Source: Novosphingobium sp. CF614 (lineage in GTDB: Bacteria; Pseudomonadota; Alphaproteobacteria; Sphingomonadales; Sphingomonadaceae). Taken from it: a DNA stretch of 64,000 nt. The position numbers were made by a program, and so were the translations under genes. This document shows, piece after piece, positions 44,322 to 61,865 of the stretch. The stretch lies in the NCBI RefSeq assembly GCF_900113255.1, contig NZ_FOOR01000008.1, positions 1-64,000 on the forward strand, in the 5' to 3' direction. The notes beneath the pieces were generated by a model, which saw only the letters and a program-made list of their open reading frames with translations, was not told the origin of the DNA and did no database searches. Positions within the stretch are counted from its first letter, which is position 1; the number at the start of each line of letters is the position of its first letter.

Positions 44322-44322
44322 T

Positions 44323-46072: not shown

Positions 46073-46111
46073 AGTTGGCTGCGATGCGTGGGAGAGGCCC
46101 GGCGCCTTCCC

Positions 46112-46567
46112 CTAACCGCGAGACAGATGCTGATCGACCCATCCGATGATGGCGCGCTGGTCGATGGCGCCAGCATTGCGTGCGACTTCCCGGCCGCCTG
46201 AAAACAGGATGAGCGTTGGAATCGACCGGATCGCGAACCGGGCGGCAACAGCCTGCTCCGCTTCAGTATCCACTTTCAGCAAACGCACCCTGGGCTCGAG
46301 ACTTTTGGCGGCGGCGGCAAAGGCCGGGGCCATCGCTTTGCAAGGCCCGCACCAGCTTGCCCAGAAATCGACGAGCACAGGCAGGGAACCGATCTGCACG
46401 TGGCGATCGAAGGCCATGCCATTTACAGCAACGGGTGCATGCTGAAACAGCATCTGACTGCAGCGCCCGCATTTCGGGCTTTCCAAGATGCGGGCGGCAG
46501 GAACGCGATTTGCCGTTGCGCACGAGGGGCAAATGATGACGGCAGGATCAGCCGAGGCTGCATTCAT
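46112..46567 (-). CDS. trxC: thioredoxin 2 with N-terminal zinc finger
   Basis: The 151-residue protein has CPSC (C13, C16) and CGRC (C33, C36) as a zinc site and the thioredoxin active site WCGPC (C73, C76), followed by the cis-Pro segment RSIPTLILF. Trx2 reduces disulfides and persulfides and could recycle ArsC and the peroxiredoxin. The start at 46567 was chosen from the zinc-finger N terminus. It is divergent from the peroxiredoxin gene. Confidence 0.93.
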   Translation of the reverse strand: MNAASADPAVIICPSCATANRVPAARILESPKCGRCSQMLFQHAPVAVNGMAFDRHVQIGSLPVLVDFWASWCGPCKAMAPAFAAAAKSLEPRVRLLKVDTEAEQAVAARFAIRSIPTLILFSGGREVARNAGAIDQRAIIGWVDQHLSRG

Positions 46568-46700
46568 CTCACTATTCCTTGTAATTGACAAGGCTTGCCC
46601 GCTTGCAAGGGAAGACCGGAACTCGTTCCCGCCGGGCACGCCGCAAGCCATGCGATGCGTCGTTGTAAGATTCTCATACTTGCCGCACCCACTTTCTCGC

Positions 46701-46717
46701 TTACATCTGTAATGTAA
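46701..46717. promoter_or_regulatory. dyad operator candidate TTACAT-N5-ATGTAA
   Basis: A perfect 6-bp inverted repeat with a 5-bp spacer lies 22 bp before the GTG of the peroxiredoxin gene. The size and AT-rich arms fit an ArsR-family operator. The arms and spacing match the dyad in the rhodanese/sqr promoter at 59014-59032. Confidence 0.55.
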
Positions 46718-46739
46718 TCGTGTAGGGAATAATGCCAAG

Positions 46740-47423
46740 GTGCGTGAAACGGAATTTCCCGGAATGGACGAAATGTCGGTCGATAGGGGCCATGCCCCGC
46801 AGTTTCTGCAGATCGGCGATCGGGCCCCGAATTTCCAGGCGCGAACGACGATGGGGGTGGTCAATCTCTCCGACTTTCGCGGTCGCTGGCTGATCCTGTT
46901 CTCGCATCCTGCCGATTTTACCCCGGTCTGCACCAGCGAATTCGTCGCCCTGTCGAAGGCGACCGACCGATTCAAGGCGCTCGACTGCGCGCTGCTCGCC
47001 GTCTCGGTCGACAGTCTCTATTCGCATCTGGGTTGGATCCGCGCGATCCGCGAGGGGTTCGGCGTCACGGTGAGTTTCCCGATCGTCGAGGATCCGTCGC
47101 TGATTATCGGCCGTGCCTACGGCATGATCTCGGATCGTTCGCCCGACGCGGCGACGATGCGATCGACCTATTTCATCGATCCCGACGGGATCATCCGCGC
47201 GATGATCTGCTATCCCGCGACGGTCGGACGCTCGGTCGATGAGATGCTCCGGGTGTTGGCCGCCCTGCAGGTTGTCGATGCCGATCATGTCGTGACCCCG
47301 GAAGGCTGGCATCCCGGCGACGCGGTGCTGTTGCCACCCCACCAGGACCAGGCCTCCCTGCTGGCCGAGGCGGATGATCCGGTGTGGTTTCATCGCAGCA
47401 AACCGCAGGCACGGAAGGCGTAG
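46740..47423 (+). CDS. 1-Cys type (Prx6) peroxiredoxin
   Basis: The 227-residue protein has the peroxidatic Cys in HPADFTPVCTSEF (residue 64 from the GTG), Arg in the YPATVGRS motif and the long C-terminal arm of Prx6/archaeal-type enzymes (VVTPEGWHPGDAVLLPP). It reduces peroxides and possibly hydropersulfides. ATGs at 46764 or 46773 may be the real start. It forms an operon with the ArsR gene 3 bp downstream. Confidence 0.88.
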   Translation: MRETEFPGMDEMSVDRGHAPQFLQIGDRAPNFQARTTMGVVNLSDFRGRWLILFSHPADFTPVCTSEFVALSKATDRFKALDCALLAVSVDSLYSHLGWIRAIREGFGVTVSFPIVEDPSLIIGRAYGMISDRSPDAATMRSTYFIDPDGIIRAMICYPATVGRSVDEMLRVLAALQVVDADHVVTPEGWHPGDAVLLPPHQDQASLLAEADDPVWFHRSKPQARKA

Positions 47424-47426
47424 GCG

Positions 47427-47804
47427 ATGGTCGACACGTTGCCCGGCCCCGATCTCGAAGCGCTCGCCGAAGTGATGCGGACGTTGGGCCATGATACCCG
47501 CCTCCGGCTGATCGCCACGCTGCTCGCGCAAGGCGAGAAGTCGGTCGGCGAAATCGAGGCCGTGACTGGCATTGGGCAACCGGGCCTGTCGCAGCAACTC
47601 GGCGTGCTGCGCAAGGCCGAACTGGTTCAGACCCGCCGTGCTGCGAAGCAGGTCTATTACAGCGTGGCGCCGGATGCGTTCATCGCGGCGGCGACTTTTC
47701 TCGCCGCGCTGGCCGGCACCGGGCCTGTCGATAAGCCAGCGCAGGTCGATCGCAAGGCATCGCCGGCCCGCGGATCTGCCGCCATGTTTGCGAAAATTCT
47801 CTAG
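47427..47804 (+). CDS. ArsR-family regulator without cysteines
   Basis: The 125-residue winged-helix protein has MRTLGHDTRLRLIATLL and the recognition helix GQPGLSQQLGVLRKA, followed by a beta-wing and a polar tail. It has no Cys, so it cannot be a dithiol or thiolate metal sensor of the classic kind. It is probably the autoregulator of the prx operon. Its TAG stop shares the palindrome CTAG with the stop of cydC on the other strand. Confidence 0.85.
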   Translation: MVDTLPGPDLEALAEVMRTLGHDTRLRLIATLLAQGEKSVGEIEAVTGIGQPGLSQQLGVLRKAELVQTRRAAKQVYYSVAPDAFIAAATFLAALAGTGPVDKPAQVDRKASPARGSAAMFAKIL

Positions 47805-49396
47805 CCCGGCAGCGCCAGATGCTGGTCGGCCAGGGACAGCATGGCTGTCCTGTGGGTGACGAGGACGAGCCCGGCTCCGGTCTCGTTCAGCCATTCGTCG
47901 AGGTTCGTCCGCATCCGCGCCTCGGTCTGCGGATCGAGCCCCTCGCTCGGCTCGTCGAGGAGCAGCCACGGGCGATCGGCCAATAGTGCCCTTGCCAGCG
48001 AGAGGCGCTTGCGCTGCCCTCCCGACAGACGGATTCCGCCATCTCCGACCCAGGTTGCAAGTCCCTCGGGCAGGGCACGCACGTCGTCCGCCAGGCATGC
48101 CACCTCAAGCGCCTGCCATAGTGCTTCATCCGTCAGGCCGATGCGGGCGATACGCAGATTATCGGCGATCGTTCCGGCAAGCATCTGGGCGTTCTGAGGC
48201 GAGAAGCCGAACAACGCGCGCCGTGTATCGGGAGGCAAGTGCGCGATCGAGTGGCCATCAATCTCGACATTGCCGCCAGTGGTACGTTGGCCTGCGAGGT
48301 ATTCGAGCAGGCTGGTCTTGCCCGAACCCGATCGGCCCGTGATGGACAGGCGATCCCCGCGTTTCAGGGTGGCCATCTGGTTGTTGCCGGTGATCCTGAT
48401 CTGATCCCCGGCAAGCAGCGGGCCGGGGACGCCCGACATGGGCGGCGTGCTGACCAGCGCCGCGAGGCGAGCAAGCCCGGCGGCAATAACAGCTTCGCGC
48501 CCGCTTGAGCGGACGCTGGCACCCAGGGTTTCGATCGCGCCGGCCGCAGCCAGTGCGGCGAGAAGGGTTATCGGCAGCGCCGCCGTGGAGAGACCGAGCA
48601 TCGCCGCCATCGCCAACCCGCCCGCTCCCGTGACGATCGCCGCGAGCACCGCTTCAGCGCGCGCAAACGCCGTTCGTTTGGCATCGAGGCCGGCGGCCCG
48701 TTCCAGCAATTGCGTTTCGACCGAACGCCCAAGCGCATAAGCGGCGATCTCTGGCGACGCGGCGGCATATTCGACGAACAACTGCTTGAGTGCGGCAATA
48801 TCCTGCTGGATGCGCAGCGCGCGCGCCGGCAGCCAGCGGCGGGCAAGCAGCCGCGTCAGGACGAGCACGGCGACGACGATGGCGGCGAGCGCATACATCG
48901 CCATCGGGCCGGCTGGCATGGCCAGTGCCAGCGCCGTGGCCGTGCCAACCAATGCCGCGACGTCGCCGGGTGCGCGCACGAACCTGTCCTCAAGGGCAGC
49001 AACGTCCTCCAGAAGCAGCGCGGCGAGGTCGCCAGCACCACGCTCAACGTTCGCGATCGGCTTGGCGATCAACGTTTCGAACAGCCGAATACGGAAGAGC
49101 GCGAGCGCGGACAGCGCGGCCTTGTGGCCATAAAGCCGCTCACCATAGCGCGTCACGGTGCGCCCGATCGCGAGCAGTCGGATCGCCGCGCTCGGCAACA
49201 GATAGTTGAACGCCTGAACGGCGGCGATCCCTGCTGCGCCGGCGAGTGCGGCGCCGGTGATGAACCAGCCCGCCAATCCCAGCAGCAGAATGCCGGCGAT
49301 CGCAGCGCATGCCGCACAGAGCATCGCCAGTCGCGTCGCGCCGCGATAGGGCCGGGAGACCTCGTCCAGCAGTGCTTCGAGCCTGCGGTCGGTCAT
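47801..49396 (-). CDS. cydC: cysteine/glutathione ABC exporter subunit CydC
   Basis: CydDC exports reduced thiols and haem-related compounds and is needed to assemble cytochrome bd. The 531-residue half-transporter has six membrane helices and an ATPase with Walker A GRSGSGKTS, signature LSGGQRKRL and Walker B LLLDEPSEG. The start overlaps the cydD stop by ATGA. The operon is divergent from cydABX. Confidence 0.93.
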   Translation of the reverse strand: MTDRRLEALLDEVSRPYRGATRLAMLCAACAAIAGILLLGLAGWFITGAALAGAAGIAAVQAFNYLLPSAAIRLLAIGRTVTRYGERLYGHKAALSALALFRIRLFETLIAKPIANVERGAGDLAALLLEDVAALEDRFVRAPGDVAALVGTATALALAMPAGPMAMYALAAIVVAVLVLTRLLARRWLPARALRIQQDIAALKQLFVEYAAASPEIAAYALGRSVETQLLERAAGLDAKRTAFARAEAVLAAIVTGAGGLAMAAMLGLSTAALPITLLAALAAAGAIETLGASVRSSGREAVIAAGLARLAALVSTPPMSGVPGPLLAGDQIRITGNNQMATLKRGDRLSITGRSGSGKTSLLEYLAGQRTTGGNVEIDGHSIAHLPPDTRRALFGFSPQNAQMLAGTIADNLRIARIGLTDEALWQALEVACLADDVRALPEGLATWVGDGGIRLSGGQRKRLSLARALLADRPWLLLDEPSEGLDPQTEARMRTNLDEWLNETGAGLVLVTHRTAMLSLADQHLALPG

Positions 49397-50970
49397 GCGA
49401 TCGCCACATGGTGATCGGCCAATGCCGCGATTTCGGGATCGTGGGTGACCAGCAGGACGGTGCGTCCCCTGGCGGCCGTTTGGACAAGGGCGATCAGGTC
49501 CGATGCCGAGGCTGCATCCAGGTCGGCGGTGGGCTCGTCGAGCAGCCAGAGCGGTGCGTCGCGCAGCACCGCACGCGCCATGCCGACGCGCCTGCGCTCA
49601 CCCCCTGACAGTCCCGAGCCATGCGGGTCGATAAGCATATCCAGGCCGGCGGCACGAGCCGAGAGTAGCGCCGCCAGGCTGACCTTGTGTGCGGCATCTT
49701 CCACCTCGGCGTCGGATGCACCAGGCCGGGCGAGCCGTATGTTGTCGCCAAGTGTCCCGGGCAGGAAGGTCGTCGCCTGGCCTGCCCAGCTCACTTGCCC
49801 TTGCAGCCGCGTTGCCGCCAGCGGCAGGTTGTCTATCAGGATTTCGCCCGTGGTGACGGGGGCCAGTCCGAGTAGCGCGTTGAGCAGGCTCGACTTGCCG
49901 GCCCCTGACGGGCCCGAAAGCACGGTCAGTTCGCCGGCTGGCACGTCGAACGTGAAGGGGCCAAGCTTCCGATCGCCATAATCGATCTCGACGGCGCTGA
50001 AACAGAGTCGCGGGGGACTATCCTGGTTGACGGCCGGAGCCATGTGGGATCCGGGCGAGGGTGCCAGGCATGAGAGCCGATCGAGTGCGGCTTCGCCGAT
50101 CTGCTTGTCATGATAGGCTGCCGCCAAGCGGCGCATCGGCAGATAGAATTCGGGCGCGAGCACGAGGACGAAGAGCGCTCGGCCGAGTGTCAGCGTTTCA
50201 GGTGCGGGAAATGGCAGCAGCCCGAGCAGGCTGAACCCGCAATAGACCGCCACCAGCGCCACCGAGAGCGCGGCGAAGAATTCCACCACGGCGCTCGACA
50301 GGAAGGCGACCCGCAGGACCGCAAGGGTGCGCCGGGCGACCTCCTGGGTGGCCCCGGACAATTGCCGGACCACGCGTTCCTGTGCGCCAAAGCCGATCAC
50401 GATCGGCAGCGCGCGCACGCGGTCGATGAACAATCCCGAGAGCTTGCTCAAGGCGTCAAGCTGGCGCGCCGCGGCGCGTGCGGCGGCGGTGCCCGCCAGT
50501 GCCATGCCGAGCCCGAACGGGACAAGCGTGGCCAGCAGGATCGTGGCCGCGACCCAGCTGGCCAGCGCTGCCGCGGCGGCCACCGCCAGGGGCGTGGCGA
50601 CCGCAGCAAATCGTAGTGGTCGAAAGCGGGCGTGGTAGCCGTCGAGATCCTCGATCCGGTCGGTGGCGTCGGCGGTCCGTTCGCCGAGCATCGCGCGCGA
50701 ACCGGCCGGGGCGCGCAGGACGGCGCCAATGGCGCGCGTGCGCCAGGTGTGTTTTTCGCGCGCCGCGTCTCGCTGGCCAGCGGTGGTCGCCAGCACTTGC
50801 ACTTGGGCCCGGCACAGGCAGGCGGCGACGAGCAGAAGCGGCGCGAGCAGCCTTTCGCCGCCGAACGGGCCTTCGGTGAGGCAGGTGACGGCAAGCGCCA
50901 GGGCTGCCGCCACGGCAATCGCCAGCACGCCGTCGAGCAGCCAAAACAGGAAAGCGCGGTTGGAAGTCAT
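49393..50970 (-). CDS. cydD: cysteine/glutathione ABC exporter subunit CydD
   Basis: The 525-residue half-transporter has an N-terminal six-helix domain and an ATPase with Walker A GPSGAGKSS, signature LSGGERRRV and Walker B LLDEPTADLD. It pairs with CydC, whose gene it overlaps. The start at 50970 gives a sensible N terminus; the longer upstream frame would cover the whole promoter region. Confidence 0.92.
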   Translation of the reverse strand: MTSNRAFLFWLLDGVLAIAVAAALALAVTCLTEGPFGGERLLAPLLLVAACLCRAQVQVLATTAGQRDAAREKHTWRTRAIGAVLRAPAGSRAMLGERTADATDRIEDLDGYHARFRPLRFAAVATPLAVAAAAALASWVAATILLATLVPFGLGMALAGTAAARAAARQLDALSKLSGLFIDRVRALPIVIGFGAQERVVRQLSGATQEVARRTLAVLRVAFLSSAVVEFFAALSVALVAVYCGFSLLGLLPFPAPETLTLGRALFVLVLAPEFYLPMRRLAAAYHDKQIGEAALDRLSCLAPSPGSHMAPAVNQDSPPRLCFSAVEIDYGDRKLGPFTFDVPAGELTVLSGPSGAGKSSLLNALLGLAPVTTGEILIDNLPLAATRLQGQVSWAGQATTFLPGTLGDNIRLARPGASDAEVEDAAHKVSLAALLSARAAGLDMLIDPHGSGLSGGERRRVGMARAVLRDAPLWLLDEPTADLDAASASDLIALVQTAARGRTVLLVTHDPEIAALADHHVAIA

Positions 50971-51086
50971 CGGGTCCGTAGCGAAACTCGCTTGCTCATA
51001 TACATAGTTACGCCTAACGGCTAACCATAATCGCGCGATGATGGACCGAGTCGTCCAACGTACCGACTGAACAGGAGTGCCCACCC
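50971..51086. promoter_or_regulatory. divergent cydDC/cydABX promoter region
   Basis: These 116 bp must hold both promoters. An AT-rich part (CATATACATAG near 50997-51007) is followed by GTTACGCCTAACGGCTAACC, which has two CTAAC steps. I do not see the ATTRCAT-N5-ATGTAAT dyad found in the two other promoters of the region, nor a clear FNR site. Confidence 0.45.
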
Positions 51087-52673
51087 ATGGTGGATATGGC
51101 CGTCATCGAGCTTTCGCGCCTGCAGTTTGCCCTGACGGCGCTCTACCATTTCCTGTTCGTGCCGTTGACCCTTGGCCTGTCGTTCATGCTCGTCATCATG
51201 GAGAGCATCTATGTGATGACCGACCGGCCGATCTGGCGGGTGGTAACACGCTTCTGGGCCAAGCTGTTCGCGATCAACTTCGTGCTGGGCGTCGCGACCG
51301 GCATCACCATGGAATTCGAGTTCGGGACCAATTGGTCCTATTTCTCGCACTACGTCGGCGACATCTTCGGCGCGCCGCTCGCGATCGAAGGGCTGATGGC
51401 CTTCTTCCTCGAGGCCACTTTTGTGGGTCTCATGTTCTTCGGCTGGGACAAGCTGAGCAAGCGCCAGCATCTCTTCACGACATTCATGGTGGCGCTCGGC
51501 TCGAACCTGTCGGCGCTGTGGATTCTCGTCGCCAACGGCTGGATGCAGCATCCCACGGGGTCGCACTTCAATCCCGAGACGATGCGCATGGAAGTCACCG
51601 ATTTCATGGCGGTGCTGTTCAATCCGGTGGCGCAGGCCAAATTCGTTCACACCGTCAGTGCGGGCTATGTTTGCGCCTCGGTGTTCGTGCTCGGCGTCTC
51701 GTCCTGGTATATCCTCAAGGGCAAGTGGGTCGCGGTTGCCAAGCGCTCCTTCACGGTCGCAGCGGCTTTCGGCCTCGCCTCTTCGCTATCGGTCGTCGTG
51801 CTGGGCGATGAATCGGGCTATGCACTTACAGACAACCAGAAAATGAAACTCGCCTCCCTGGAGGCCATGTGGCACACCGAGCCCGCACCCGCCGGCATCG
51901 CCATCTTCGGCATTCCCAGCATGGAAGGGCGCGAGACGCGTTACGAGATCAAGATTCCCTATGTGCTGGGACTGATCTCCACGCGCAGCCTCACCGGCGA
52001 AGTTTCCGGCATCAACGAACTGGTGGTCAAGGCCGAGACCCGGATCGAGAGCGGCATCAAGGCCTATGACGCGGTCGAGAAGCTGAAGGTCGATCGCACC
52101 GACCTGGTCGCGCGCGCGCAGTTCGAGCAGCACAAGCTCGACCTTGGCTATGCCATGCTGCTCAAGCGCTTCATGCCCGACCCGCGCTCGGCGACGCCCG
52201 CCGATATCCAGAAAGCGGCGTGGACGACGGTCCCCAATGTCCCGGTCATGTTCTGGCTGTTCCGCGTGATGGCCGGCCTCGGCTTCTTCTTTATCGCCTT
52301 CTTCGGCGCGGCGTTCTACATTGCCTCGATCCGGCGCTTCGGTTCCAGCGACGGATTTTTCCGGCTGTTCATGCGAACGGCGGTCTGGATCATTCCGCTG
52401 CCCTGGCTGGCCATCGAATTCGGCTGGGTGCTTGCCGAGATCGGCCGCCAGCCCTGGGCTATCGAAGGTGTGCTGCCGACGTTCCTGGGCGCCTCGAGCC
52501 TGACGGTTCCGCAAATTTGGACGACGATCATCGGCTTCACCCTGCTCTACGGCGCGCTTGCGGTGATCGAGGTCCGACTGATGCTGGCAGCGATCCGGCA
52601 TGGTCCGATCGAGCATCATGACGGGCCGGACGCCCCGCTTCACCACGGCTATGCCCCACTGCCCGCCGAATAA
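51087..52673 (+). CDS. cydA: cytochrome bd ubiquinol oxidase subunit I
   Basis: CydA binds the haems and oxidises quinol while reducing oxygen to water; bd oxidases tolerate sulfide, NO and cyanide better than haem-copper oxidases. The 528-residue protein has the haem ligand His21 (LYHFLFVPLT), the second His in AKFVHTVSAGY and GRQPWAI. The region after ALTDNQKMKLA is long and close to the E. coli type, so it is a long-Q-loop CydA. AGGAG lies upstream of the ATG. Confidence 0.96.
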   Translation: MVDMAVIELSRLQFALTALYHFLFVPLTLGLSFMLVIMESIYVMTDRPIWRVVTRFWAKLFAINFVLGVATGITMEFEFGTNWSYFSHYVGDIFGAPLAIEGLMAFFLEATFVGLMFFGWDKLSKRQHLFTTFMVALGSNLSALWILVANGWMQHPTGSHFNPETMRMEVTDFMAVLFNPVAQAKFVHTVSAGYVCASVFVLGVSSWYILKGKWVAVAKRSFTVAAAFGLASSLSVVVLGDESGYALTDNQKMKLASLEAMWHTEPAPAGIAIFGIPSMEGRETRYEIKIPYVLGLISTRSLTGEVSGINELVVKAETRIESGIKAYDAVEKLKVDRTDLVARAQFEQHKLDLGYAMLLKRFMPDPRSATPADIQKAAWTTVPNVPVMFWLFRVMAGLGFFFIAFFGAAFYIASIRRFGSSDGFFRLFMRTAVWIIPLPWLAIEFGWVLAEIGRQPWAIEGVLPTFLGASSLTVPQIWTTIIGFTLLYGALAVIEVRLMLAAIRHGPIEHHDGPDAPLHHGYAPLPAE

Positions 52674-52684
52674 GGAGACCGACC

Positions 52685-53833
52685 GTGGCCCCTCCCATCG
52701 ACTACGAAACCCTGCGCGTGATCTGGTGGGCGCTGATGGGCGTCCTGCTGATCGGCTTTGCCCTGACCGACGGGTTCGATCTCGGCGTCGCCTCGCTGCT
52801 ACCCTTCGTCGCGAAGACTGACGAAGAGCGGCGGATGGTTATAAACTCGGTCGGCGCGACCTGGGAAGGCAACCAGGTCTGGTTCATTCTCGGCGGAGGC
52901 GCGATCTTCGCCGCCTGGCCCTTCGTCTATGCCGTCAGCTTCTCAGGCTTCTACCTTGCGATGTTCCTCGTCCTTGCAGCGCTCATCCTGCGGCCCGTGG
53001 GCTTCAAATACCGCTCCAAGAAGCCCGATCCGGCATGGCGCAGCCGCTGGGACTGGGCGCTGTTCGTCGGCGGTTTCGTGCCGGCGCTGGTGTTCGGCGT
53101 CGCGGTCGGCAATGTCCTGGCCGGCGTTCCCTTCCGGCTCGACGGCGACTTGCGCTCCTTCTACGAGGGCACGCTGCTCGGACTGTTCCATCATTTCTCG
53201 CTGCTCGCAGGTCTGCTGTCGGTAGCCATGCTGGTCCTGCACGGATCGGCCTGGCTCGCGATCAAGATCGAACGCGGCGCGGTCCATGATCGGGCCAAAA
53301 GCTTCGGACAGATCGCGGCGGTTCTGGCGATCCTGCTGTTCGCCGCAGGCGGCGTGATGGTCGCGACCATGAACATGGGTTTCCGAACCGAAGGCGCGGT
53401 AGACCCCATGGGGCCGTCCAATCCGCATTTGTCCACCCTCGTGGCGGCTCGCGGCGCGTGGCTGGCCAACTACGGCGCGCACCCCTGGATGCTACTGGCG
53501 CCGGTGCTGGGCTTCCTTGGTCCGGTCATGGCGCTGATCGGGATTAGGTCGAAGCGTGAAGTGCTGGCCTTTGGCGGCTCGTCGTTCGCCGCCATCGGGA
53601 TCATCTCGACGGTCGGGCTTTCGATGTTCCCGTTCATCCTGCCGAGCTCGATCGACCCGGGCTCCAGCCTCACGGTCTGGAACGCCTCTTCGAGTCACCT
53701 GACGCTGTTCATCATGCTGCTGGTGACGCTGGTGTTCCTGCCGATCGTGCTGCTCTACACGGCCTGGGTCTACAAGGTGCTGTTCGGCCGCGTGACCACG
53801 CAGGACGTGCGCACCAATCCCGATTACTATTGA
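52685..53833 (+). CDS. cydB: cytochrome bd ubiquinol oxidase subunit II
   Basis: The 382-residue membrane protein begins MAPPIDYETLRVIWWALMG and has FALTDGFDLGVASLLPF, the TWEGNQVWFILGGGA motif and eight to nine helices. It forms the heterodimer with CydA. It lies 11 bp after cydA and 16 bp before cydX. Confidence 0.96.
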   Translation: MAPPIDYETLRVIWWALMGVLLIGFALTDGFDLGVASLLPFVAKTDEERRMVINSVGATWEGNQVWFILGGGAIFAAWPFVYAVSFSGFYLAMFLVLAALILRPVGFKYRSKKPDPAWRSRWDWALFVGGFVPALVFGVAVGNVLAGVPFRLDGDLRSFYEGTLLGLFHHFSLLAGLLSVAMLVLHGSAWLAIKIERGAVHDRAKSFGQIAAVLAILLFAAGGVMVATMNMGFRTEGAVDPMGPSNPHLSTLVAARGAWLANYGAHPWMLLAPVLGFLGPVMALIGIRSKREVLAFGGSSFAAIGIISTVGLSMFPFILPSSIDPGSSLTVWNASSSHLTLFIMLLVTLVFLPIVLLYTAWVYKVLFGRVTTQDVRTNPDYY

Positions 53834-53849
53834 ACGAGGTTCTTGACCA

Positions 53850-53960
53850 ATGTGGTATTTCACCTGGGTATTGGGTCTTGGCTTGGCCGTCGGGTTCGGC
53901 ATCCTCAACGGTATCTGGCATGAGTTCCATTCGGATCCCGGCGAAGACCTGACGCAATAG
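53850..53960 (+). CDS. cydX: cytochrome bd small subunit CydX
   Basis: The 36-residue peptide begins MWYFTWVLGLGLAVGFGI, one membrane helix, and ends with an acidic tail. The MWYF.W.LG start is diagnostic for CydX, which stabilises the haems of cytochrome bd. Confidence 0.93.
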   Translation: MWYFTWVLGLGLAVGFGILNGIWHEFHSDPGEDLTQ

Positions 53961-53986
53961 AGGCCAGCTCAAACACCGACGCGCCG

Positions 53987-54349
53987 TCACGACGCCGGGC
54001 CGAGGTCGGGTGACGATGCGCGATCCGCGGCGAGCGGGCCGTCTTCTTTGCCGAACTGACTGCACAGAAAGGTCATCAGCGCTTGCACCCTGGCATCGGC
54101 GAGCCGGTAGAAGATCGTGGTGTTCTCGCGCCGGGTCTGGACGAAGCCGGCTTCACGCATCCGCCCCAGATGCTGCGAAACGCTCGATTGCGACAAACCG
54201 CATAAGCCGACCAGTTCGCCGACCGACGCTTCACCCTCACGCAGGCGGCAGAGCAGCAGCAGGCGCTGCTCGTTGGCGACGACCTTGAGGAATGCGGCGA
54301 CCTCGGTCGCGCGCTCGCACAGAATTTCCGCCGTATCGTCCATCATCAT
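53987..54349 (-). CDS. two-cysteine ArsR-family regulator, SqrR/BigR-like
   Basis: The 120-residue protein has NEQRLLLLCRLREGEASVGEL, the recognition helix SQSSVSQHLGRMRE and a C-terminal helix with MTFLCSQFG. The cysteines C34 and C96 match in place the pair that forms a tetrasulfide or disulfide bridge in the persulfide sensors SqrR and BigR; C11 and C50 are extra. It is the last gene of rhodanese-mfp-rnd-arsR and overlaps the RND stop by ATGA. It probably represses the divergent rhodanese and sqr operons. Confidence 0.82.
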   Translation of the reverse strand: MMMDDTAEILCERATEVAAFLKVVANEQRLLLLCRLREGEASVGELVGLCGLSQSSVSQHLGRMREAGFVQTRRENTTIFYRLADARVQALMTFLCSQFGKEDGPLAADRASSPDLGPAS

Positions 54350-57300
54350 TTGCTTGCAGGTCTCCCGTCATCACGCAGCACCACGTAGATGGCCGGGATA
54401 ACCAGCACGGTGAGCAAGGTCGAGGAGGCAAGACCGAACAGAAGCGAGATGGCGAGGCCCTGGAAGATCGGATCGGTAAGGATCACGGCAGCACCGATCA
54501 TCGCGGCCGCCGCCGTCAGCACGATCGGCTTGAAGCGGATCGTACCCGCTTCGATCAACACGTCGCGCAGCGGCTTGTCGGGCGTGGACGTGTGCCGGAT
54601 GAAATCGACCAGCAGGATCGAGTTGCGCACGATGATGCCGGCCAGCGCGATGAAGCCGATCATCGAGGTGGCGGTGAACGGCGCGCGGAACAGCATATGG
54701 CCGATGACGATGCCGACCAGGGTCAGCGGGACCGGCGTCAGGATGACGAGCGGCAGCCTGAAACTGCGGAACTGGGCGACGACGAGGATATAGATGGCGA
54801 GCAGCGCGACCATGAACGCCGCGCCCATGTCCCGGAAGGTCACCCAGGTGATCTCCCATTCGCCGTCCCAGAGCAGGCTGGTTGCGTTTTCATCGGTGGG
54901 CTGGCCGCTGAGACGGATGACGGGCTTTTGCAGACCCCTGGCGGCCCAGTCATAGCTTTCGATCGCGCGATCGACCGCGAGCATGCCGTAGATCGGCGCC
55001 TCATAATCGCCCGCCAGTTCGGCCGTCACCATATCGGCGAAGTGGCCGTCGCGCCGGAAGATGGCCGGGCTGCTCTGCTCCTGCTGTGCCTCGACGATCG
55101 CGCCCAGTTCGACCAGTTTCGGTCCCGCCGGGGTCTGCGACACCGCTACCGGCGTGCTGGCCAGCGTCTGCGTCCAGCTTCGCGCGGATTGGGGGAGGGC
55201 GATGGTGATGGGCAGCGGCGTGCGCTCGTCCCCGCGCGGGGCGTAGCCGACGGTCTTGCTACCCAGCAGTGCACCGATCGAATCGTTGATGTCGCGCGCT
55301 GAGAGACCGTAATAATCGATCCGGTCGCGCTGCGGGATCAGGCGGAGCTTGGGGCGGGGCTGGCCGAAGCTGTTGTCGACATCGACGATATAGGGGATCG
55401 ACTTGAAGATTTTCTCGAGTTCGGTCGCCGTCGCGCGCCGGCTCTGCGCGTCGGGGCCGTAGATTTCGGCGAGCAGGGTTGCGAGCACCGGCGGTCCCGG
55501 TGGCGTTTCGACGACCTTGATCGAGGTTCCTTCGGGGAGCTTCAGCGCCTTGAGCTTCTGGCGCAAGGCAAGCGCGATCTGGTGGCTCGAGCGGTCGCGG
55601 TCACCCTTGGGCAGCAAGGTCACCATGACATCGCCCATCTCCGGGCGACCGCGCAGGAAATAATGGCGCACGAGGCCGTTGAAGTTGAACGGCGCGGAGG
55701 TGCCGAGATAGGCCTCCATCGCGGTCGCTTCGGGGAGTTCGCGGGTCAGGCGGGTGACGTCTTCGAGGACACGGCCGGTGCCTTCAAGGCTGGTGCCCTC
55801 GGGCATGTCGACCACGACTTGCACCTCGGACTTGTTGTCGAAGGGCAGCAGCTTGACCGTCACCGCCTTGAAGTAGAACATCGAACAGGCAAGCAAGGTG
55901 GCGATGCCGACTGCGATCAAAAAATTCCGCGCCGACTTGCGATCGTCGATGATCCGGTGCGCGACGCGCGCATAGAGGCCGCCGAGCTTGCCGCCGCTCT
56001 CGTCATGGCCGCTCTTGCCATTGTCAGGCGCGGTATCGGCGGACAGCGCCTTGCGCGCGAACCGGATCATCAGCCACGGCGCGATCACGACCGCGACGAA
56101 GAAGGAAAAGACCATCGCGGCCGACGCATTGACCGGGATTGGCGCCATATACGGTCCCATGAGGCCTGACACGAACAGCATCGGCAGCAGCGCCGCGACC
56201 ACGGTAAGCGTGGCGACCACCGTGGGGTTGCCGACCTCGGCGACCGCCTCGATCGCGGCCTGGGTCCGGGTGCGCCCATGACTGCCAACGTCGGGCATCG
56301 CCCAATGGCGGGCGATATTCTCGATCATCACGATCGCGTCATCAACGAGAATGCCGATCGAGAAGATCAGCGCGAACAGGCTGACGCGGTTGATCGTGTA
56401 GCCCATGAGGTTCGAGGCGAACATGGTCAGCAGGATCGTGGTCGGGATCACGACGGCGGTGACGCCGGCCTCGCGCCAGCCGATCGCAAAGCCGATCAGG
56501 ATGACGATCGAGATCGTCGCGAGCGCGAGGTGGTAGAGAAGTTCATTGGCCTTCTCGTTCGCGGTCGCGCCGTAATTGCGCGTGACCGCGACATCGACCC
56601 CATCGGGAACGAGGCTGCCTTTGAGGCTTTCCAGGCGTGCAAGCACCGCCTCGGAGACAACCACGGCATTGGCGCCCGAACGCTTGGCGATCGCGATGCT
56701 GACGGCTGGCGCGTTCGACCAGCGTCCCTCGTTGCGTGCCCAGCGCCATGCCCGCGCCTGATCCTCGCGCGGACCCTGCGTGACCGCGGCGACATCGCGC
56801 AGATAGACCGGTGCCCCGGTCACCGAGCGGACGGTGAGCATGCCGACCTCCTGCGCCGAAGACAGAGTCTGGCCTGCGGTGACCGCAACGGCTCGCCCGC
56901 CCTCGCGGACGCTGCCCGCCGGGAAGCTGCGATTGGCCTGGGCCGCCGCATCGATAACGCCGCCGAGCGGTACGCCATATTGGCTGAGCTTGCCGGGATC
57001 AGGCGCGATACGAATTTCTTCGGGCCGCCCGCCGGTCAGGAAGGTGAGGCCGACATTATCGACCTTGGCGATCTCGGTCCGCAGCCGGGCGGCGAGCGCA
57101 TAGAGCGCTTGGTCGTCATATCGCCCGGCCGCGCCGGGCTTGGGCGACAGCGTCAGGACGATGGCGGGGACATCATTGATCCCGCGCACCGTGACCTTGG
57201 GGTCAGGGATGCCGACCGGTATGCGGTCCCAATTGGCGCGCAGCTTTTCGTCGATCCGGGTCGCGGCGTCCTCGGGGTTCGATCCGACCAGGAAGCGCGC

Positions 57301-57591
57301 GGTCACCATCACGCCATCGTCTTCGGCCTGGGTATAGACATGCTCGACCCCGTCGACGCTTTTGACGATGGTCTCGAGCGGGATGCCGACCAGTTGGACG
57401 GCATCAGGCGCCGACAGGCCCGGCGCCGAGACCTGGATGTCGACCATCGGCACGCTGATCTGCGGCTCTTCCTCGCGCGGGATCGTGAAGAGCGCGAGCA
57501 GGCCGATGGCGATGGCCGCCAGCAGGAACAGCGGGGTCAGCGGCGAGGTGATCGTCGCGCGGGTGAGGCGTCCCGAGAGGCCGAGATTCAC
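54346..57591 (-). CDS. RND efflux pump inner-membrane transporter
   Basis: The 1081-residue protein is an AcrB/HAE-type RND permease with twelve helices, two large periplasmic loops and the helix-4 motif GILVDDAIVMIENIARH with the paired Asp. The second half contains the helix-10 to -12 region with GIIVRNSILLVDFI. The substrate is unknown; the HME motif for heavy metals is not obvious. The start is GTG at 57591, overlapping the MFP stop. Its partner TolC is in the divergent sqr operon. Confidence 0.92.
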   Translation of the reverse strand: MNLGLSGRLTRATITSPLTPLFLLAAIAIGLLALFTIPREEEPQISVPMVDIQVSAPGLSAPDAVQLVGIPLETIVKSVDGVEHVYTQAEDDGVMVTARFLVGSNPEDAATRIDEKLRANWDRIPVGIPDPKVTVRGINDVPAIVLTLSPKPGAAGRYDDQALYALAARLRTEIAKVDNVGLTFLTGGRPEEIRIAPDPGKLSQYGVPLGGVIDAAAQANRSFPAGSVREGGRAVAVTAGQTLSSAQEVGMLTVRSVTGAPVYLRDVAAVTQGPREDQARAWRWARNEGRWSNAPAVSIAIAKRSGANAVVVSEAVLARLESLKGSLVPDGVDVAVTRNYGATANEKANELLYHLALATISIVILIGFAIGWREAGVTAVVIPTTILLTMFASNLMGYTINRVSLFALIFSIGILVDDAIVMIENIARHWAMPDVGSHGRTRTQAAIEAVAEVGNPTVVATLTVVAALLPMLFVSGLMGPYMAPIPVNASAAMVFSFFVAVVIAPWLMIRFARKALSADTAPDNGKSGHDESGGKLGGLYARVAHRIIDDRKSARNFLIAVGIATLLACSMFYFKAVTVKLLPFDNKSEVQVVVDMPEGTSLEGTGRVLEDVTRLTRELPEATAMEAYLGTSAPFNFNGLVRHYFLRGRPEMGDVMVTLLPKGDRDRSSHQIALALRQKLKALKLPEGTSIKVVETPPGPPVLATLLAEIYGPDAQSRRATATELEKIFKSIPYIVDVDNSFGQPRPKLRLIPQRDRIDYYGLSARDINDSIGALLGSKTVGYAPRGDERTPLPITIALPQSARSWTQTLASTPVAVSQTPAGPKLVELGAIVEAQQEQSSPAIFRRDGHFADMVTAELAGDYEAPIYGMLAVDRAIESYDWAARGLQKPVIRLSGQPTDENATSLLWDGEWEITWVTFRDMGAAFMVALLAIYILVVAQFRSFRLPLVILTPVPLTLVGIVIGHMLFRAPFTATSMIGFIALAGIIVRNSILLVDFIRHTSTPDKPLRDVLIEAGTIRFKPIVLTAAAAMIGAAVILTDPIFQGLAISLLFGLASSTLLTVLVIPAIYVVLRDDGRPASK

Positions 57592-58613
57592 TTGCGGCTT
57601 CCCGGAGCGAAGAGGGTGTCGCCCGCGGTTATGCCGCCGAGAATTTCTACCTTGTCGGGCTCGACAGTCGGCGCGGTCTGGACCGCCACCGCGCTGACGC
57701 GCCGATCAGGTGTCACGACATCGACATAGTCGATGCCATAGCGCGTCGAAATGAAGCGGCGCGGGACGATGATGGCGCGTCGCCGGCCAACCTCGATCAT
57801 GACGCCAACCCGGCGTCCGACCAGTTGAGTGGTAAGGCTGGGCACAGTCGCATCGACCTGCATTCGCCCCCCGGCGACTGCAGGATAGATCTGGGTGACC
57901 TCCCCCTGGCGCGACCCGTCGGGCAAATCTTCCTGGGCGACCGCGACATGCGCGCCGACATGCACCGCGTCGGCCAGCGATTCCGGCAGATCAAGCCGAA
58001 GGACCGGCGGGCCAGCGGTCACGGTCGCGATCGACATGCCCGGCGCGACGACCGAGCCTGCGGGGATATCGGCGCGTAAAACACGGCCGGTGGCCGGCGC
58101 GAGGACCGCGCCCTGTCCAGCGACGCTCGCGCGCGCATTCTGCTGGGCGCGGGCAGCCGCGACCTGGGCATCGGCGGCGCGCGCCATGGCGACCGACTGA
58201 TCCAGGCGAGCCTTGGCATAGACATTGTGATTGTAGAGATCCTGGACGCGCGCGAGGTCGCCCCGCGCGCGCGCGGCTTCGGCTTGCGCGGCGGCAACCT
58301 GCGCGCCTGCCGCGCTCGTCTCATAGCCAAGGCGCGTATCGACGATTGACCCGATGCGCTGGCCCTTGGTCACCATGTCGCCGGCGCGGATGCTGAGACT
58401 GACCAAGGTGCCGGGAATGCGGGCAAGCGCCTGGGCCTGGTCGCGCGTCGTTATCTCGGCTCCGACCGCCTTCATGTCGGCGGTCTCTGCGAGCGCGACG
58501 GTCAGCCGTTCGCCGGCGGGCAAGGCCGCCGCCTTTTCCTCGCTCGGCGCGCTGCCGCCGCAGGCCGTCAGCGTCAACGCCGCACCAGCGACCATCCATG
58601 CCCATTTTGTCAT
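57588..58613 (-). CDS. RND efflux periplasmic adaptor (membrane fusion lipoprotein)
   Basis: The 341-residue protein has a lipoprotein signal ending LTAC (Cys18), a lipoyl half-motif (IRAGDMVTKGQRIG), an Ala-rich hairpin (about 100-170), the second lipoyl half (VLAPATGRVLRADIPAGSVV) and beta-barrel and proximal domains. It links the RND pump to TolC. It lies 27 bp downstream of the rhodanese gene. Confidence 0.92.
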   Translation of the reverse strand: MTKWAWMVAGAALTLTACGGSAPSEEKAAALPAGERLTVALAETADMKAVGAEITTRDQAQALARIPGTLVSLSIRAGDMVTKGQRIGSIVDTRLGYETSAAGAQVAAAQAEAARARGDLARVQDLYNHNVYAKARLDQSVAMARAADAQVAAARAQQNARASVAGQGAVLAPATGRVLRADIPAGSVVAPGMSIATVTAGPPVLRLDLPESLADAVHVGAHVAVAQEDLPDGSRQGEVTQIYPAVAGGRMQVDATVPSLTTQLVGRRVGVMIEVGRRRAIIVPRRFISTRYGIDYVDVVTPDRRVSAVAVQTAPTVEPDKVEILGGITAGDTLFAPGSRK

Positions 58614-58640
58614 TGCCGATGGCTCCCCCGTTGCATGGCC

Positions 58641-58979
58641 TTAGCCGCGTTCGACCGGCAGGCCGGCGGCCTTCCAGGCGCCGATACCGCCCGCGAGATG
58701 CGTATCGATGCTCGACTGCGCGCTGGCGCAGCGGTCGAGCGCGAGGCCCGACCGCTTGCCGCCAGCGCATTGGAGCACGATCGTTCGGCCCGCTGCATCC
58801 GGAACATTACGCGGTGCGAATTTCGAAAGCGGGGCGTTTACTGCACCCTTGATATGCTCGGCGGCGAATTCGTCGGGTTCCCGCACGTCGACGAGGAGCG
58901 CCGAACCATCGGCCAGCATTGCTTTGAGGGTCTGCGCATCGATCTCCCGGTGCGCCTTGGCCTTGCCGAATCCGAACAT
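58641..58979 (-). CDS. single-domain rhodanese
   Basis: The 112-residue protein has LLVDVREPDEFAAEHIKGA and the active-site loop QCAGGKRSGLA, with the Cys that carries the persulfide. It can transfer sulfane sulfur to a thiol acceptor, matching the product of the SQR encoded divergently. It has no signal peptide, so it is cytoplasmic. It heads the operon with the RND pump and the ArsR regulator. Confidence 0.9.
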   Translation of the reverse strand: MFGFGKAKAHREIDAQTLKAMLADGSALLVDVREPDEFAAEHIKGAVNAPLSKFAPRNVPDAAGRTIVLQCAGGKRSGLALDRCASAQSSIDTHLAGGIGAWKAAGLPVERG

Positions 58980-59013
58980 GGTGGGTCTCCATCGCTGAGC
59001 TATCAATTTGTAT

Positions 59014-59032
59014 ATTGCATATATCATGTAAT
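59014..59032. promoter_or_regulatory. operator candidate ATTGCAT-N5-ATGTAAT in the rhodanese/sqr divergent promoter
   Basis: A 19-bp dyad with 7-bp arms (one mismatch) lies 35 bp from the rhodanese start and 49 bp from the sqr start, where one repressor could control both operons. It shares the TTRCAT-N5-ATGTAA core with the dyad at 46701-46717. An overlapping TATAT-N3-ATATA repeat (59011) and further AT-rich sequence lie next to it. Confidence 0.6.
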
Positions 59033-59080
59033 CATTATATTCAGTCAAGCGAGATATTCGCGGTGAGAGGAACGAGCATC

Positions 59081-60361
59081 ATGAACAAACCGAAGATCGT
59101 GGTGCTGGGCGCGGGCTTGGGCGGCACCATCGCAGCCTATGAAATCCAGGCGGCTGCCAAGGGCCGGGCCGAGGTGATGATGGTGTCCGAATCGGACACC
59201 TATTCCTTTATACCTTCCAACCCCTGGGTCGCGGTTCGCTGGCGCGAGCCCGAAGCCATCCAGGTGCACCTGCCGCCCATCTTCGCCAGGAAGAAGATCG
59301 GCTTCACCTCGGTTGGCGCGAAGCGCCTGCATGCGACTGAAAAGCGCCTCGAACTCAATGATGGCAGCGATGTCAATTATGATTATCTTGTAATTGCAAC
59401 TGGACCTGATTTGGCATTTGACGAAATCGAAGGGCTTGGGCCGCATGGCGGTCATACCGTTTCGATCTGCCAGACCGCGCATGCCTCGGCCGCAGCCGAA
59501 GCCTTCGACCGCTTCGTTGAAAATCCCGGGCCGATCGTGGTCGGCGCGGTGCAGGGGGCGTCGTGCTACGGCCCGGCCTACGAGTTCGCGCTGATCCTCG
59601 ATACCGAGCTCCGCCGCCGCAAGATCCGCGACAAGGTGCCGATGACTTTCGTCACCGCCGAGCCCTATATCGGTCATCTCGGCCTCGACGGCGTCGGCGA
59701 CACCAAGGGCCTGCTCGAAAGCACGCTGCGCGAGCGGCACATCAAATGGGTCACCAATGCCAGCGTCGCCAGGGTCGAGGCGGGCACGATGCATGTCGAG
59801 GAAATCGCCGAGGGCGGCGCTGTCGCCCGGACCCACGACCTGCCGTTCGCCTTCTCGATGATGCTCCCGGCCTTCCGGGGCGTTCCCGCCGTGCGCGACA
59901 TCGCCGGCCTCACCAATCCGCGCGGCTTCATCCTGATCGACAAGCATCAGCGCAACCCGGCCTTCCCGGAAATCTTTGCGCTCGGTGTCTGCGTCGCGAT
60001 CCCGCCCACCGGGCCGACGCCGGTGCCGGTCGGCGTGCCGAAGACGGGCTTCATGATCGAAAGCATGGTGACCGCGATCGCGGCCAATCTCGATGCGATA
60101 CTCGACGGCAGGGAACCCACGACCGAAGCGACCTGGAACGCGGTTTGCCTGGCTGACTTCGGCGATGGCGGCGTCGCCTTCGTCGCACAGCCGCAAATTC
60201 CGCCGCGCAACGTCAATTGGTCGGCCAGCGGCAAGTGGGTCCATCTCGCGAAGATCGGCTTCGAGAAATACTTCCTCCGCAAGGTGCGCAGGGGCGAGAG
60301 CGAACCCTTCTACGAGAAGCTCGCGCTCCACGTCATGGGCATCAAGAAGCTGCGGATGTGA
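59081..60361 (+). CDS. sqr: sulfide:quinone oxidoreductase
   Basis: SQR oxidises sulfide to sulfane sulfur or polysulfide and passes electrons to quinone. The 426-residue flavoprotein has the FAD motif VVLGAGLGGTIAAYE (about 7-21) and ATGPD, and cysteines C130, C162 and C356 whose spacing matches the three catalytic cysteines of the Aquifex enzyme; C304 is additional. The C-terminal part has the amphipathic membrane anchor with KWVHLAKIGFEKYF. The ATG at 59081 follows GAGAGG. It starts an operon with a DUF2892 gene and tolC. Confidence 0.93.
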   Translation: MNKPKIVVLGAGLGGTIAAYEIQAAAKGRAEVMMVSESDTYSFIPSNPWVAVRWREPEAIQVHLPPIFARKKIGFTSVGAKRLHATEKRLELNDGSDVNYDYLVIATGPDLAFDEIEGLGPHGGHTVSICQTAHASAAAEAFDRFVENPGPIVVGAVQGASCYGPAYEFALILDTELRRRKIRDKVPMTFVTAEPYIGHLGLDGVGDTKGLLESTLRERHIKWVTNASVARVEAGTMHVEEIAEGGAVARTHDLPFAFSMMLPAFRGVPAVRDIAGLTNPRGFILIDKHQRNPAFPEIFALGVCVAIPPTGPTPVPVGVPKTGFMIESMVTAIAANLDAILDGREPTTEATWNAVCLADFGDGGVAFVAQPQIPPRNVNWSASGKWVHLAKIGFEKYFLRKVRRGESEPFYEKLALHVMGIKKLRM

Positions 60362-60393
60362 CCGCCTCGTTCGACACGGAAAGGAAAAACACA

Positions 60394-60597
60394 ATGACTC
60401 TCGATCGCGCCGTCATGATTTTCGCAGGCTGTGTCGTCCTCTTGGGGATCGTGCTGTCCTTCACCGTCCATCCCTGGTGGATCGGCCTCAGTGCCTTTGC
60501 CGGGGTCAATATGATCCAGGCCGGCTTCACTGGCTTCTGTCCGGCAGCGATAGTTTTCAAGGCGATGGGCGTCCGTCCGGGCACCGCGTTCAAATGA
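60394..60597 (+). CDS. DUF2892 membrane protein (YgaP-type anchor)
   Basis: The 67-residue protein has two membrane helices (about 4-22 and 28-47) and the conserved GFCPAAIVFKAMGV motif. In YgaP this part is fused to a rhodanese; here the two domains are separate genes in divergent operons. It may anchor or receive sulfur from the rhodanese. It lies 32 bp after sqr and overlaps tolC by ATGA. Confidence 0.9.
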   Translation: MTLDRAVMIFAGCVVLLGIVLSFTVHPWWIGLSAFAGVNMIQAGFTGFCPAAIVFKAMGVRPGTAFK

Positions 60598-61865
60598 CGA
60601 GCAAGCGCCGCATTGCGCGCCTGATGCTATGGCTTGCCGCTCCGCTGGCGCTGAGCACCGTGGGGCACGCGACGACGCTTGAAGAAGCGCTTGCCGCGGC
60701 CATCGCGCATGCGCCCGAGATTGCCGCGGCCGACGCGGATGCGGATGCGGCCAGAGCGCGGCTCGATCAGGCGAAGGCCGGCCGACTGCCGACCGCGACG
60801 CTCAGCGGTACGATCGGCTATGGCCGCCTCGATCCGCAGGGCTTCTTCGGCCTCGGCGCGGCCAACGTGACGCCCCGCGCCGCCCAGATGACGGTCGAGC
60901 AGCCCCTTTTCACCGGGGGCAGGGTCGGCGCCGGGATCGATCAGGCCCGCGCCGGCATCGCCGGCGCCGAGGCGGGGCAGGCAGGCACGCGCAGCCGGCT
61001 CGTGATGGCGGTGACCCAGGCCTATGGCGACGTGCTGACCACTGCCCGCATGGTCGATCTCTACGGCCGCCTCGTTACCCAGACGACCGAGATCGAGCGT
61101 CAGGCCCGCCTCAAGTTTCGCGTGGGCGAGAGCCCCAGTACCGATGTCTCCCAGGCGGGTGCCCGTCTTGCCGAGGCGCGCGCCGGGCTTGCCCGCGCAC
61201 GGGGCATGCAAGTCTCGGCACAGGCGCATTTTCGGAACCTGACCGGCCTTGAACCGGCAGATCTCCAGCCGCTCCCGTCCAATCCCGTGCTTCCCGCCAC
61301 GCTCGACGAGGCGATGGACGCGGCAACCCGCAACAATCCCGCGCTGGCACAGTCCGAGGCCAGCCTGCGCGCGGCTCAGGCCGCGGCGCGCGGCGCGCGG
61401 GCCGAGCGCCTGCCCACGGTCGGCGCCTTCGCGGAGGGGGCCACCGTCCGCGACCAGTCCTTCCCCGACTACCGGGCGGACAGCGCGACCATTGGCATCC
61501 GTGCACGCTGGGAATTGTTCAGCGGCGGCCGAGCGTCGGGCAAGGTCGCCGAGACGGATAGCAGTGTCCGGGCAGCCGATGCGCGGGTGCGGGCCATGCG
61601 GATGCAGGTCGAAGAGCAGGTCATCTCTGCCTTTCAGGATGTTCGCACGGCGCAACTGGTCGAACAGGCGGCAACCGATCAGGCAAGCGCCGCGGCGCAA
61701 GCGCTCGACAGCGTGCGACACGAGGTTCGGGTCGGCATGAAGCCGCAGCTCGACCTGCTCGATGCCGAGCGCGAATCGATTGCTGCCGAGGCAGGCGCCT
61801 TGCAGGCCGGCACAGATCGCATCGTTGCGGCCTACCGCCTGCTCAGCCTGATGGGCCGTTACTGA
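60594..61865 (+). CDS. TolC-family outer-membrane efflux protein
   Basis: The 423-residue protein has a signal peptide (about 1-26), then two repeats of the OEP domain: coiled-coil helices rich in Ala/Glu with beta segments at EQPLFTGGRV and RWELFSGGRA. It should form the exit duct of the RND-MFP pump encoded in the divergent operon. The ATG overlaps the DUF2892 stop. It is the last gene before the IS fragments. Confidence 0.93.
   Translation: MTSKRRIARLMLWLAAPLALSTVGHATTLEEALAAAIAHAPEIAAADADADAARARLDQAKAGRLPTATLSGTIGYGRLDPQGFFGLGAANVTPRAAQMTVEQPLFTGGRVGAGIDQARAGIAGAEAGQAGTRSRLVMAVTQAYGDVLTTARMVDLYGRLVTQTTEIERQARLKFRVGESPSTDVSQAGARLAEARAGLARARGMQVSAQAHFRNLTGLEPADLQPLPSNPVLPATLDEAMDAATRNNPALAQSEASLRAAQAAARGARAERLPTVGAFAEGATVRDQSFPDYRADSATIGIRARWELFSGGRASGKVAETDSSVRAADARVRAMRMQVEEQVISAFQDVRTAQLVEQAATDQASAAAQALDSVRHEVRVGMKPQLDLLDAERESIAAEAGALQAGTDRIVAAYRLLSLMGRY

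Follow-up and report, generated by a model that had tools for sequence, protein, structure and literature searches.

A conserved RND efflux pump in a predicted sulfide and sulfane-sulfur detoxification locus of Novosphingobium sp. CF614

How the sulfane sulfur made by sulfide:quinone oxidoreductase (SQR) leaves the cell, and how it is disposed of in bacteria without a persulfide dioxygenase (PDO), is a question raised by a locus of Novosphingobium sp. CF614 (assembly of 4.21 Mb, 66 contigs): in the stretch analyzed here, a 64,000-nucleotide window of contig NZ_FOOR01000008.1, positions 53987 to 61865 hold two divergent operons in which genes for sulfide handling stand together with those of a tripartite RND efflux pump. 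The leftward operon (minus strand) encodes a rhodanese (58641-58979), a membrane fusion protein (MFP, the RND periplasmic adaptor; 57588-58613), the RND permease (54346-57591) and, as its last gene, an ArsR-family regulator (ArsR2; 53987-54349), and the rightward operon (plus strand) encodes the SQR (59081-60361), a DUF2892 protein (~60394-60597) and a TolC-family outer-membrane channel (60594-61865). The pump is divided over the two operons, mfp-rnd in one and tolC in the other, just as the preliminary description had it. The leftward operon is packed, with 4-nt overlaps at mfp/rnd and rnd/arsR2; DUF2892 and tolC also overlap by 4 nt, and the start codons of rhodanese and sqr are 101 nt apart (58980-59080, the divergent promoter region). 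Open reading frames (ORFs) that reach 59048 and that start at 60093 are extensions of the rhodanese gene (from an upstream TTG) and of tolC, respectively. From the gene content, the conserved linkage, the conserved cysteines and one promoter element shared by both operons, we read the locus, with a probability of roughly 0.55, as a sulfane-sulfur-controlled detoxification system with a tripartite pump of its own that would export a sulfane-sulfur product of SQR or an adduct.

The 426-residue product of 59081-60361 is a clear SQR with predicted enzyme activity (Pyr_redox_2 above cut-off). Its C130, C162 and C356, named earlier and present together with C304, align with cysteines of the nearest solved relative, the SQR of Acidithiobacillus ferrooxidans (E = 7.4e-143), and we take these three to be catalytic; among 80 linked sequences they were kept in 71, 76 and 77, respectively. 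The family scan identified the rhodanese as a single-domain protein of 112 amino acids (56.3 bits against PF00581; gathering score, 22.2) whose active-site Cys71 was kept in 56 of 56 linked proteins. It likewise identified the DUF2892 protein (43.0 bits against PF11127; gathering score, 25.3), a YgaP-like transmembrane (TM) protein with a conserved Cys49 in FTGFCP; at that position all 117 aligned residues were Cys (14 of 131 sequences were gapped). The genome encodes one SQR. It has nothing close to the Paracoccus PDO (best E = 8e-10, 31% identity), and all four matches of the metallo-β-lactamase (MBL) fold in the genome were without the RTDF string, presumably the mark of a PDO. With one SQR and no close PDO, the cell must put the sulfane sulfur from this enzyme somewhere, and a non-oxidative outlet would be of use, such as export would provide.

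The RND permease (1081 amino acids) belongs to a sulfur-linked clade. Among 162 clade sequences D417 and R989 were invariant, and D418 and T1026 were each kept in 161; D417 and D418 (TM4) are presumably the equivalent of the proton-relay pair of AcrB, and the position of R989 varied in controls (Lys in 8 of 20). In the loop 634-650, F637, N638, G639, V641 and R642 were present in 161 of 161 sequences and R647 in 160; none of the 20 controls has this combination. The window's permease reads F637-N-G-L-V-R642-H, and the signature common to clade pumps is FNG[LM]VR, then H or Q. The loop stretch spans 34 residues in all 161 clade pumps versus 14 to 32 in controls (insertions counted); since control lengths reach 32, length alone separates little, and it is the signature residues that count. 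Residues 638 to 642 had a predicted local distance difference test score (pLDDT) below 50 in an AlphaFold model with a mean of 84.5, so the loop may be mobile. Being basic, it suggests a narrow, perhaps anionic substrate, with which it may be in contact. Tree support for the clade was 0.609, and the clade then takes in three relatives at 35 to 39% identity. Of its partners, the MFP carries a lipobox-type Cys18 and scored above the cut-off of TIGR01730, and the TolC protein, recognized by family scan, scored 225 bits against 225.15 for TIGR01844 and 205.5 against 22 for Pfam OEP. Several tier-1 RND genes (G334, G444, G391, G337 and G372) had one in-frame stop, and these are possibly decaying copies or sequence errors.

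A search for rnd-rhodanese-sqr synteny in other genomes, which the preliminary description had proposed, showed that the arrangement recurs in many genera, far above controls, and is not confined to one genome. Neighbors were sought within 6 kb on either side of the RND gene. A phylum sample of 398 evenly drawn genomes, 171 of them with an RND match at E ≤ 1e-120, yielded 60 loci: 33 listed places of at least 1600 bits (the window's own excluded) and 27 hand-picked ones of 1115 to 1544 bits, with a group near 1020 bits left out. DUF2892 was found in 42 of these, ArsR in 33, SQR in 30 and rhodanese in 20, versus 0, 1, 3 and 1, respectively, of 40 pooled control RND loci (Fisher P = 4e-14, 7e-9, 8e-6 and 1e-4); the hidden Markov models for the neighbors were derived from these same loci, so detection may favor clade neighbors, and ORFs were start-extended, so gene distances are approximate. 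Twenty of the controls, from Sphingomonadales (23 to 30% identity), had SQR in 1 locus and none of the other three genes. The other 20 were matched, taken from the same genomes as clade members (the first listed non-clade RND per genome, or the next one in G385 and G072, where the first lay near a clade member); DUF2892, ArsR, SQR and rhodanese were found in 0, 1, 2 and 1 of these loci versus 18, 18, 15 and 9 of the clade loci of those genomes, which were hand-picked and showed linkage above that of the whole sample (DUF2892, 18/20 versus 42/60). Among 80 named loci the counts were 48, 41, 27 and 19. In the same genus, an RND orthologue of 73 to 76% identity was present in 13 of 36 other genomes (15 loci), accompanied by SQR and DUF2892 in 15, ArsR and TolC in 14, rhodanese in 13 and PDO in 7 of the 15. 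In 24 genomes from other families of the order, no RND match exceeded 39%. The most widespread partner across these samples is DUF2892; sphingomonads are the group in which the full set is typically seen. The counts support the RND pump as a stable part of a sulfide and sulfane-sulfur locus.

The linkage was also found on plasmids. A relative at E ≤ 1e-100 was present in 54 of 72,556 plasmid records, 18 of them at 60% identity or more, and ten of the 54 were inspected for neighbors. A conjugative Rhizorhabdus plasmid carries the entire core (RND identity, 84%), and on plasmids of Paracoccus, Azospirillum, Methylocella and Pseudanabaena, which belong to other orders, RND adjoins ArsR together with SQR, rhodanese and/or DUF2892 genes. 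An unannotated Aeromonas record has SQR, DUF2892 and ArsR by tblastn; a Vibrio plasmid has DUF2892 alone near RND, and the Shinella, Sulfurovum and Polaromonas records had no sulfur-gene cluster at the pump. On plasmid 1 of Paracoccus denitrificans (L051), RND is flanked by a PDO-DUF2892-YeeE-DUF6691-sulfurtransferase-ArsR cluster and an SQR. In a Methanoregulaceae metagenome-assembled genome (MAG; L118), an archaeal-binned contig holds an RND relative of 43% identity accompanied by MFP, TolC and DUF2892, by transfer or misbinning. Further neighbor clusters, named by eye and without controls, were an ABC-type ATPase (26 loci), a carboxymuconolactone-decarboxylase-like protein (13 loci) and a TauE/SafE-like membrane protein (12 loci). 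In L113, L114, L119, L124, L125 and L127 (Sulfuritalea, a gammaproteobacterium, Thiorhodococcus, Sedimenticola, Thiomargarita and Chromatiaceae), no DUF2892, ArsR, SQR or rhodanese was seen near the clade RND; some of these flanks are short, and several of the RND genes have longer frames.

What would control the two operons? By family scan, structure match and cysteine count, ArsR2 is a candidate BigR/SqrR-type repressor. Both cysteines of the layout described earlier, C34 and C96, are present and align with cysteines of Xylella fastidiosa BigR (3pqj), the nearest solved structure, followed by HlyU and further regulators, including YgaV. BigR was also the best-scoring family (NCBIfam equivalog NF040642), at 83.7 bits, below the cut-off of 155, so ArsR2 is BigR-like, not BigR itself. 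Both cysteines were found in 88 of 105 RND-linked ArsR proteins (84 of 93 loci), the second being counted anywhere in 18 residues from position 90; this span replaced the single-column count for C96 (35/105) because in many ArsRs the second cysteine sits a turn further along.

An AT-rich, conserved operator-like element, TTGCATATATCATGTAATCATTATATTCAGTCAA, was located at 59015-59048 (no strand assigned) by pattern and matrix scan. SQR upstream regions shared TTGC..ATA...ATAT..(G)TCAA in 27 of 78 cases, the window included, by a pattern fitted by eye (strict regular expression, 2/78; loosened version, 27/78). With a matrix from the other 26 sites, the window's element scored 34.5 versus 9.5 for the next site; 50 one-strand local shuffles gave a best score of 25.4 and a mean of 9.8. 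The exact pattern TTGCNNATAT-N8..14-ATATNNNGTCAA occurred once genome-wide, at the rhodanese/sqr promoter, and a variant with two bases before GTCAA had zero matches in the genome. We infer that ArsR2 binds this element, and the pump is very probably under sulfane-sulfur-responsive control. A scan of the promoter region found no sigma-70 promoter. The SqrR motif ATTC-N8-GAAT, quoted in the available part of PMC9774250, was set aside as a candidate: in the form ATTC-N4..12-GAAT it occurred in 5 of 77 SQR upstream regions, the window's not among them.

Judging by the families of SQR, repressor and pump, the parts could act as follows. ArsR2, seated on the one element that separates rhodanese from sqr, would repress both operons until persulfide or polysulfide links C34 to C96 and releases the repressor from DNA. 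SQR would oxidize sulfide at the membrane, pass the electrons to quinone and yield sulfane sulfur (persulfide, polysulfide or S8). Holding or relaying this sulfur might fall to the rhodanese and to the DUF2892 protein, which has two helices and a conserved membrane Cys. RND pumps take their substrates from the periplasm or the outer leaflet, so that a carrier would be needed for sulfur that arises on the cytoplasmic side; the DUF2892 thiol, whose relative YgaP has Cys159, is a candidate. RND-MFP-TolC would then pick up a sulfane-sulfur product or adduct in the periplasm or outer leaflet and expel it past the outer membrane. That a sulfur species or adduct is the substrate is, by a narrow preference, the account of the export step that we favor. 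A sharper version is tentative and, in our judgment, somewhat doubtful: the clade as a whole might be dedicated to the export of zero-valent (sulfane) sulfur, in which case SQR would load the membrane Cys of DUF2892 and the RND protein, with its FNG[LM]VR(H/Q) loop, would carry polysulfide, S8 or a low-molecular-weight persulfide out via TolC. If it were true, such an exporter would be one route to extracellular sulfur, alternative to PDO. A widespread RND clade with a signature, a repressor of sulfur-sensing type and a membrane thiol protein make the question testable by single deletions.

Several observations weigh against export of sulfane sulfur by this pump. The pump may not be needed for SQR, rhodanese and DUF2892 to act. 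An MBL protein (L222; G000:C31:14795-15346), CstB-like by eye and near a frame resembling the major facilitator superfamily, might be a dioxygenase. A clade member was present in 111 of 150 genomes of the family of a Sulfuritalea MAG, and in 20 loci of that family DUF2892 was found in 19 (mostly touching RND), but ArsR in only 3, SQR likewise in 3, and no rhodanese. Among loci with full flanks, 7 of 32 in tier 1 and 10 of 25 in tier 2 had no DUF2892, SQR, rhodanese or PDO within 6 kb, and several relatives from sulfur oxidizers were without any marker. A dedicated TolC was common only in same-genus loci (14/15 versus 15/60 in the phylum sample). By gene order, the sole basis for the assignment, the pump of Azospira suillum PS, compared below, appears to belong to the clade. 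Finally, comparison of folds, tried as a discriminator between drug and metal pumps, was uninformative, the RND fold matching both AcrB-type and CusA pumps: the listed structure matches, CusA included, had Z scores of 43 to 46 and root-mean-square deviations of 3.0 to 4.5 over 940 to 995 residues at 19 to 23% identity.

Two alternatives concern the substrate. An AcrB-like pump might export organic or lipid-like compounds of sulfide stress (persulfidated thiols, quinone adducts or signaling molecules) and not sulfur, which we consider unlikely but worth keeping in view: the fold is of AcrB type, D417/D418 are paired and RND_permease_2 is the best NCBIfam model, but that model gave 410 bits and RND_permease_1 gave 333 against a subfamily cut-off of 1250 for hydrophobe/amphiphile efflux (HAE), and the invariant basic loop, absent in 20 controls, speaks for a narrower substrate. 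Metal ions, or the metal-sulfide complexes that form as sulfide meets metals, are rather unlikely as the cargo of the pump. Metal export has in its favor CusA among the structure matches (Z = 44.9; AdeB, the best, 46.3; AcrD, 45.1) and, next door at 43955-46072, just ahead of trxC, an arsenic-type cluster (ArsR, a low-molecular-weight phosphatase/ArsC-like protein and an Acr3-like transporter, named by ORF reading); the A. suillum authors, in the available part of PMC5358917, propose metal-sulfide export or a stress role for their own RND proteins. The heavy-metal efflux model TIGR00914, however, gave 269 bits against a cut-off of 701, cysteines in the pump are few (one in RND, the lipobox Cys only in MFP, none in TolC), the linked regulator is BigR/SqrR-like, and by eye no metal gene was recognized among neighbor clusters in at least 10 loci, with a P-type-ATPase-like cluster in 4 loci (without controls).

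In a scheme of cyanide or thiocyanate detoxification, the rhodanese would make thiocyanate, which would leave through the YgaP-like protein and the pump, with cytochrome bd as the cyanide-insensitive oxidase. YgaP has been hypothesized to be an SCN- exporter (PMC4730233, available part), and cydABX and cydDC are adjacent, but the frequent partners of the pump are SQR and DUF2892 (cyanide genes were not searched for), the regulator has a persulfide-sensing layout and cyd genes seldom stand near the pump outside this group; we consider this explanation improbable. A neighborhood without functional link would account for the clade members that lack sulfur neighbors; it is made very unlikely by the counts in the 60 clade and 40 control loci given above, and one promoter element is common to both operons.

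How far does the locus extend? The preliminary description had drawn a single sulfide/persulfide island from 46100 onward, and all genes named in it are present side by side. Family scans identified TrxC (46112-46567, minus strand; 151 amino acids from the likely ATG, with a Zn ribbon), a peroxiredoxin with a 1-cysPrx C-terminal domain (ORF 46740-47423, plus strand) and ArsR1 (47427-47804, plus strand); CydC (47801-49396) and CydD (49393 to ~50970), both on the minus strand, and CydA (51087-52673) and CydB (52685-53833) on the plus strand were assigned by ORF reading and tblastn between loci, and CydX (~53850-53960, plus strand) was read from the sequence. The part of the claim that holds is the RND pump as a stable member of the sulfur locus 53987-61865. 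One regulon for the whole island was rejected, and for neither trxC nor the peroxiredoxin gene was a regulon shared with the core supported: the element is confined to the rhodanese/sqr promoter, which argues for one switch there and against a common one with trxC, prx and cyd; ArsR1 has zero cysteines and is therefore not a thiol-based persulfide sensor; and cydA was only weakly linked to clade pumps (8 of 75 loci of the wider sample versus 0 of 40 controls, P = 0.049). TrxC was near a clade pump in 14 of 75 loci versus 0 of 40 (P = 0.002). An exact left half-site, TTGCTCATAT, lies at 50992-51001 between cydD and cydA, without a right half. In Novosphingobium arvoryzae (L106) and in L041, probably the same genome, the arsR side of the pump operon leads into TrxC, a DUF2202 protein, a peroxiredoxin, an ArsR and cydDC, with cydA also following in L106, so that much of 46100-53960 recurs there; the peroxiredoxin-linked ArsR is likewise without a Cys34 equivalent. 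At the right end of the window, 63253-64000 is the start of an apparent IS1380-type transposase gene, and G+C content is lower at 62 to 64 kb (0.57).

The split of a complete tripartite pump over two divergent sulfur operons had been presented as unusual. Partial precedents exist in PMC5358917 and PMC12423496; neither, in its available part, was found to give a pump substrate, and beyond these two we recognized, among the papers that our searches listed, none on this RND clade or its substrate (searches on DUF2892 with RND and sulfide, and on the A. suillum locus tags, returned only PMC5358917). The A. suillum PS operon Dsui_3440-3443 encodes an RND permease, an MFP, an SQR and a small protein and, in a 2017 study, was highly expressed under H2S-oxidizing conditions, with a Bar-seq signal; deletion of the entire operon left the oxidation rate unchanged, which fits protection rather than catalysis, and a DUF2892 gene elsewhere was up about tenfold (PMC5358917, available part). 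Like the core, it unites RND, MFP and SQR; unlike the core, it has no divergent layout, and no rhodanese, ArsR or TolC is named. Two loci of the Sulfuritalea-MAG family (L239 and L233) have the order MFP-SQR-RND-DUF2892 as in that operon, with DUF2892 fourth, and their RND and SQR proteins are 41 to 42% and 62 to 63% identical to those of the window.

Loci of BigR, SqrR and sHdrR (X. fastidiosa, Rhodobacter capsulatus and Hyphomicrobium denitrificans) resemble the core in having a two-cysteine ArsR near SQR, rhodanese and related genes. A 2025 study places RND pumps among the likely targets of two-cysteine ArsRs; its section 2.1, unlike the present analysis, contains no RND clade, counts, signature or mechanism (PMC12423496, available part). 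Escherichia coli YgaV-YgaP shares with the core a BigR-type repressor, a rhodanese and a two-helix membrane domain whose Cys159 lies close to the second helix (PMC4730233 and PMC9774250, available parts), but in YgaP the rhodanese and the membrane domain form one protein, and the operon given in those parts, ygaV-ygaP, includes no pump. AcrB/MexB-type HAE pumps share with the window's RND protein the fold and the paired TM4 aspartates; the latter differs in scoring below the NCBIfam cut-offs, in its invariant Arg989 and in its distinct 634-650 loop, and caution is due before pumps of its clade are labeled multidrug or metal pumps.

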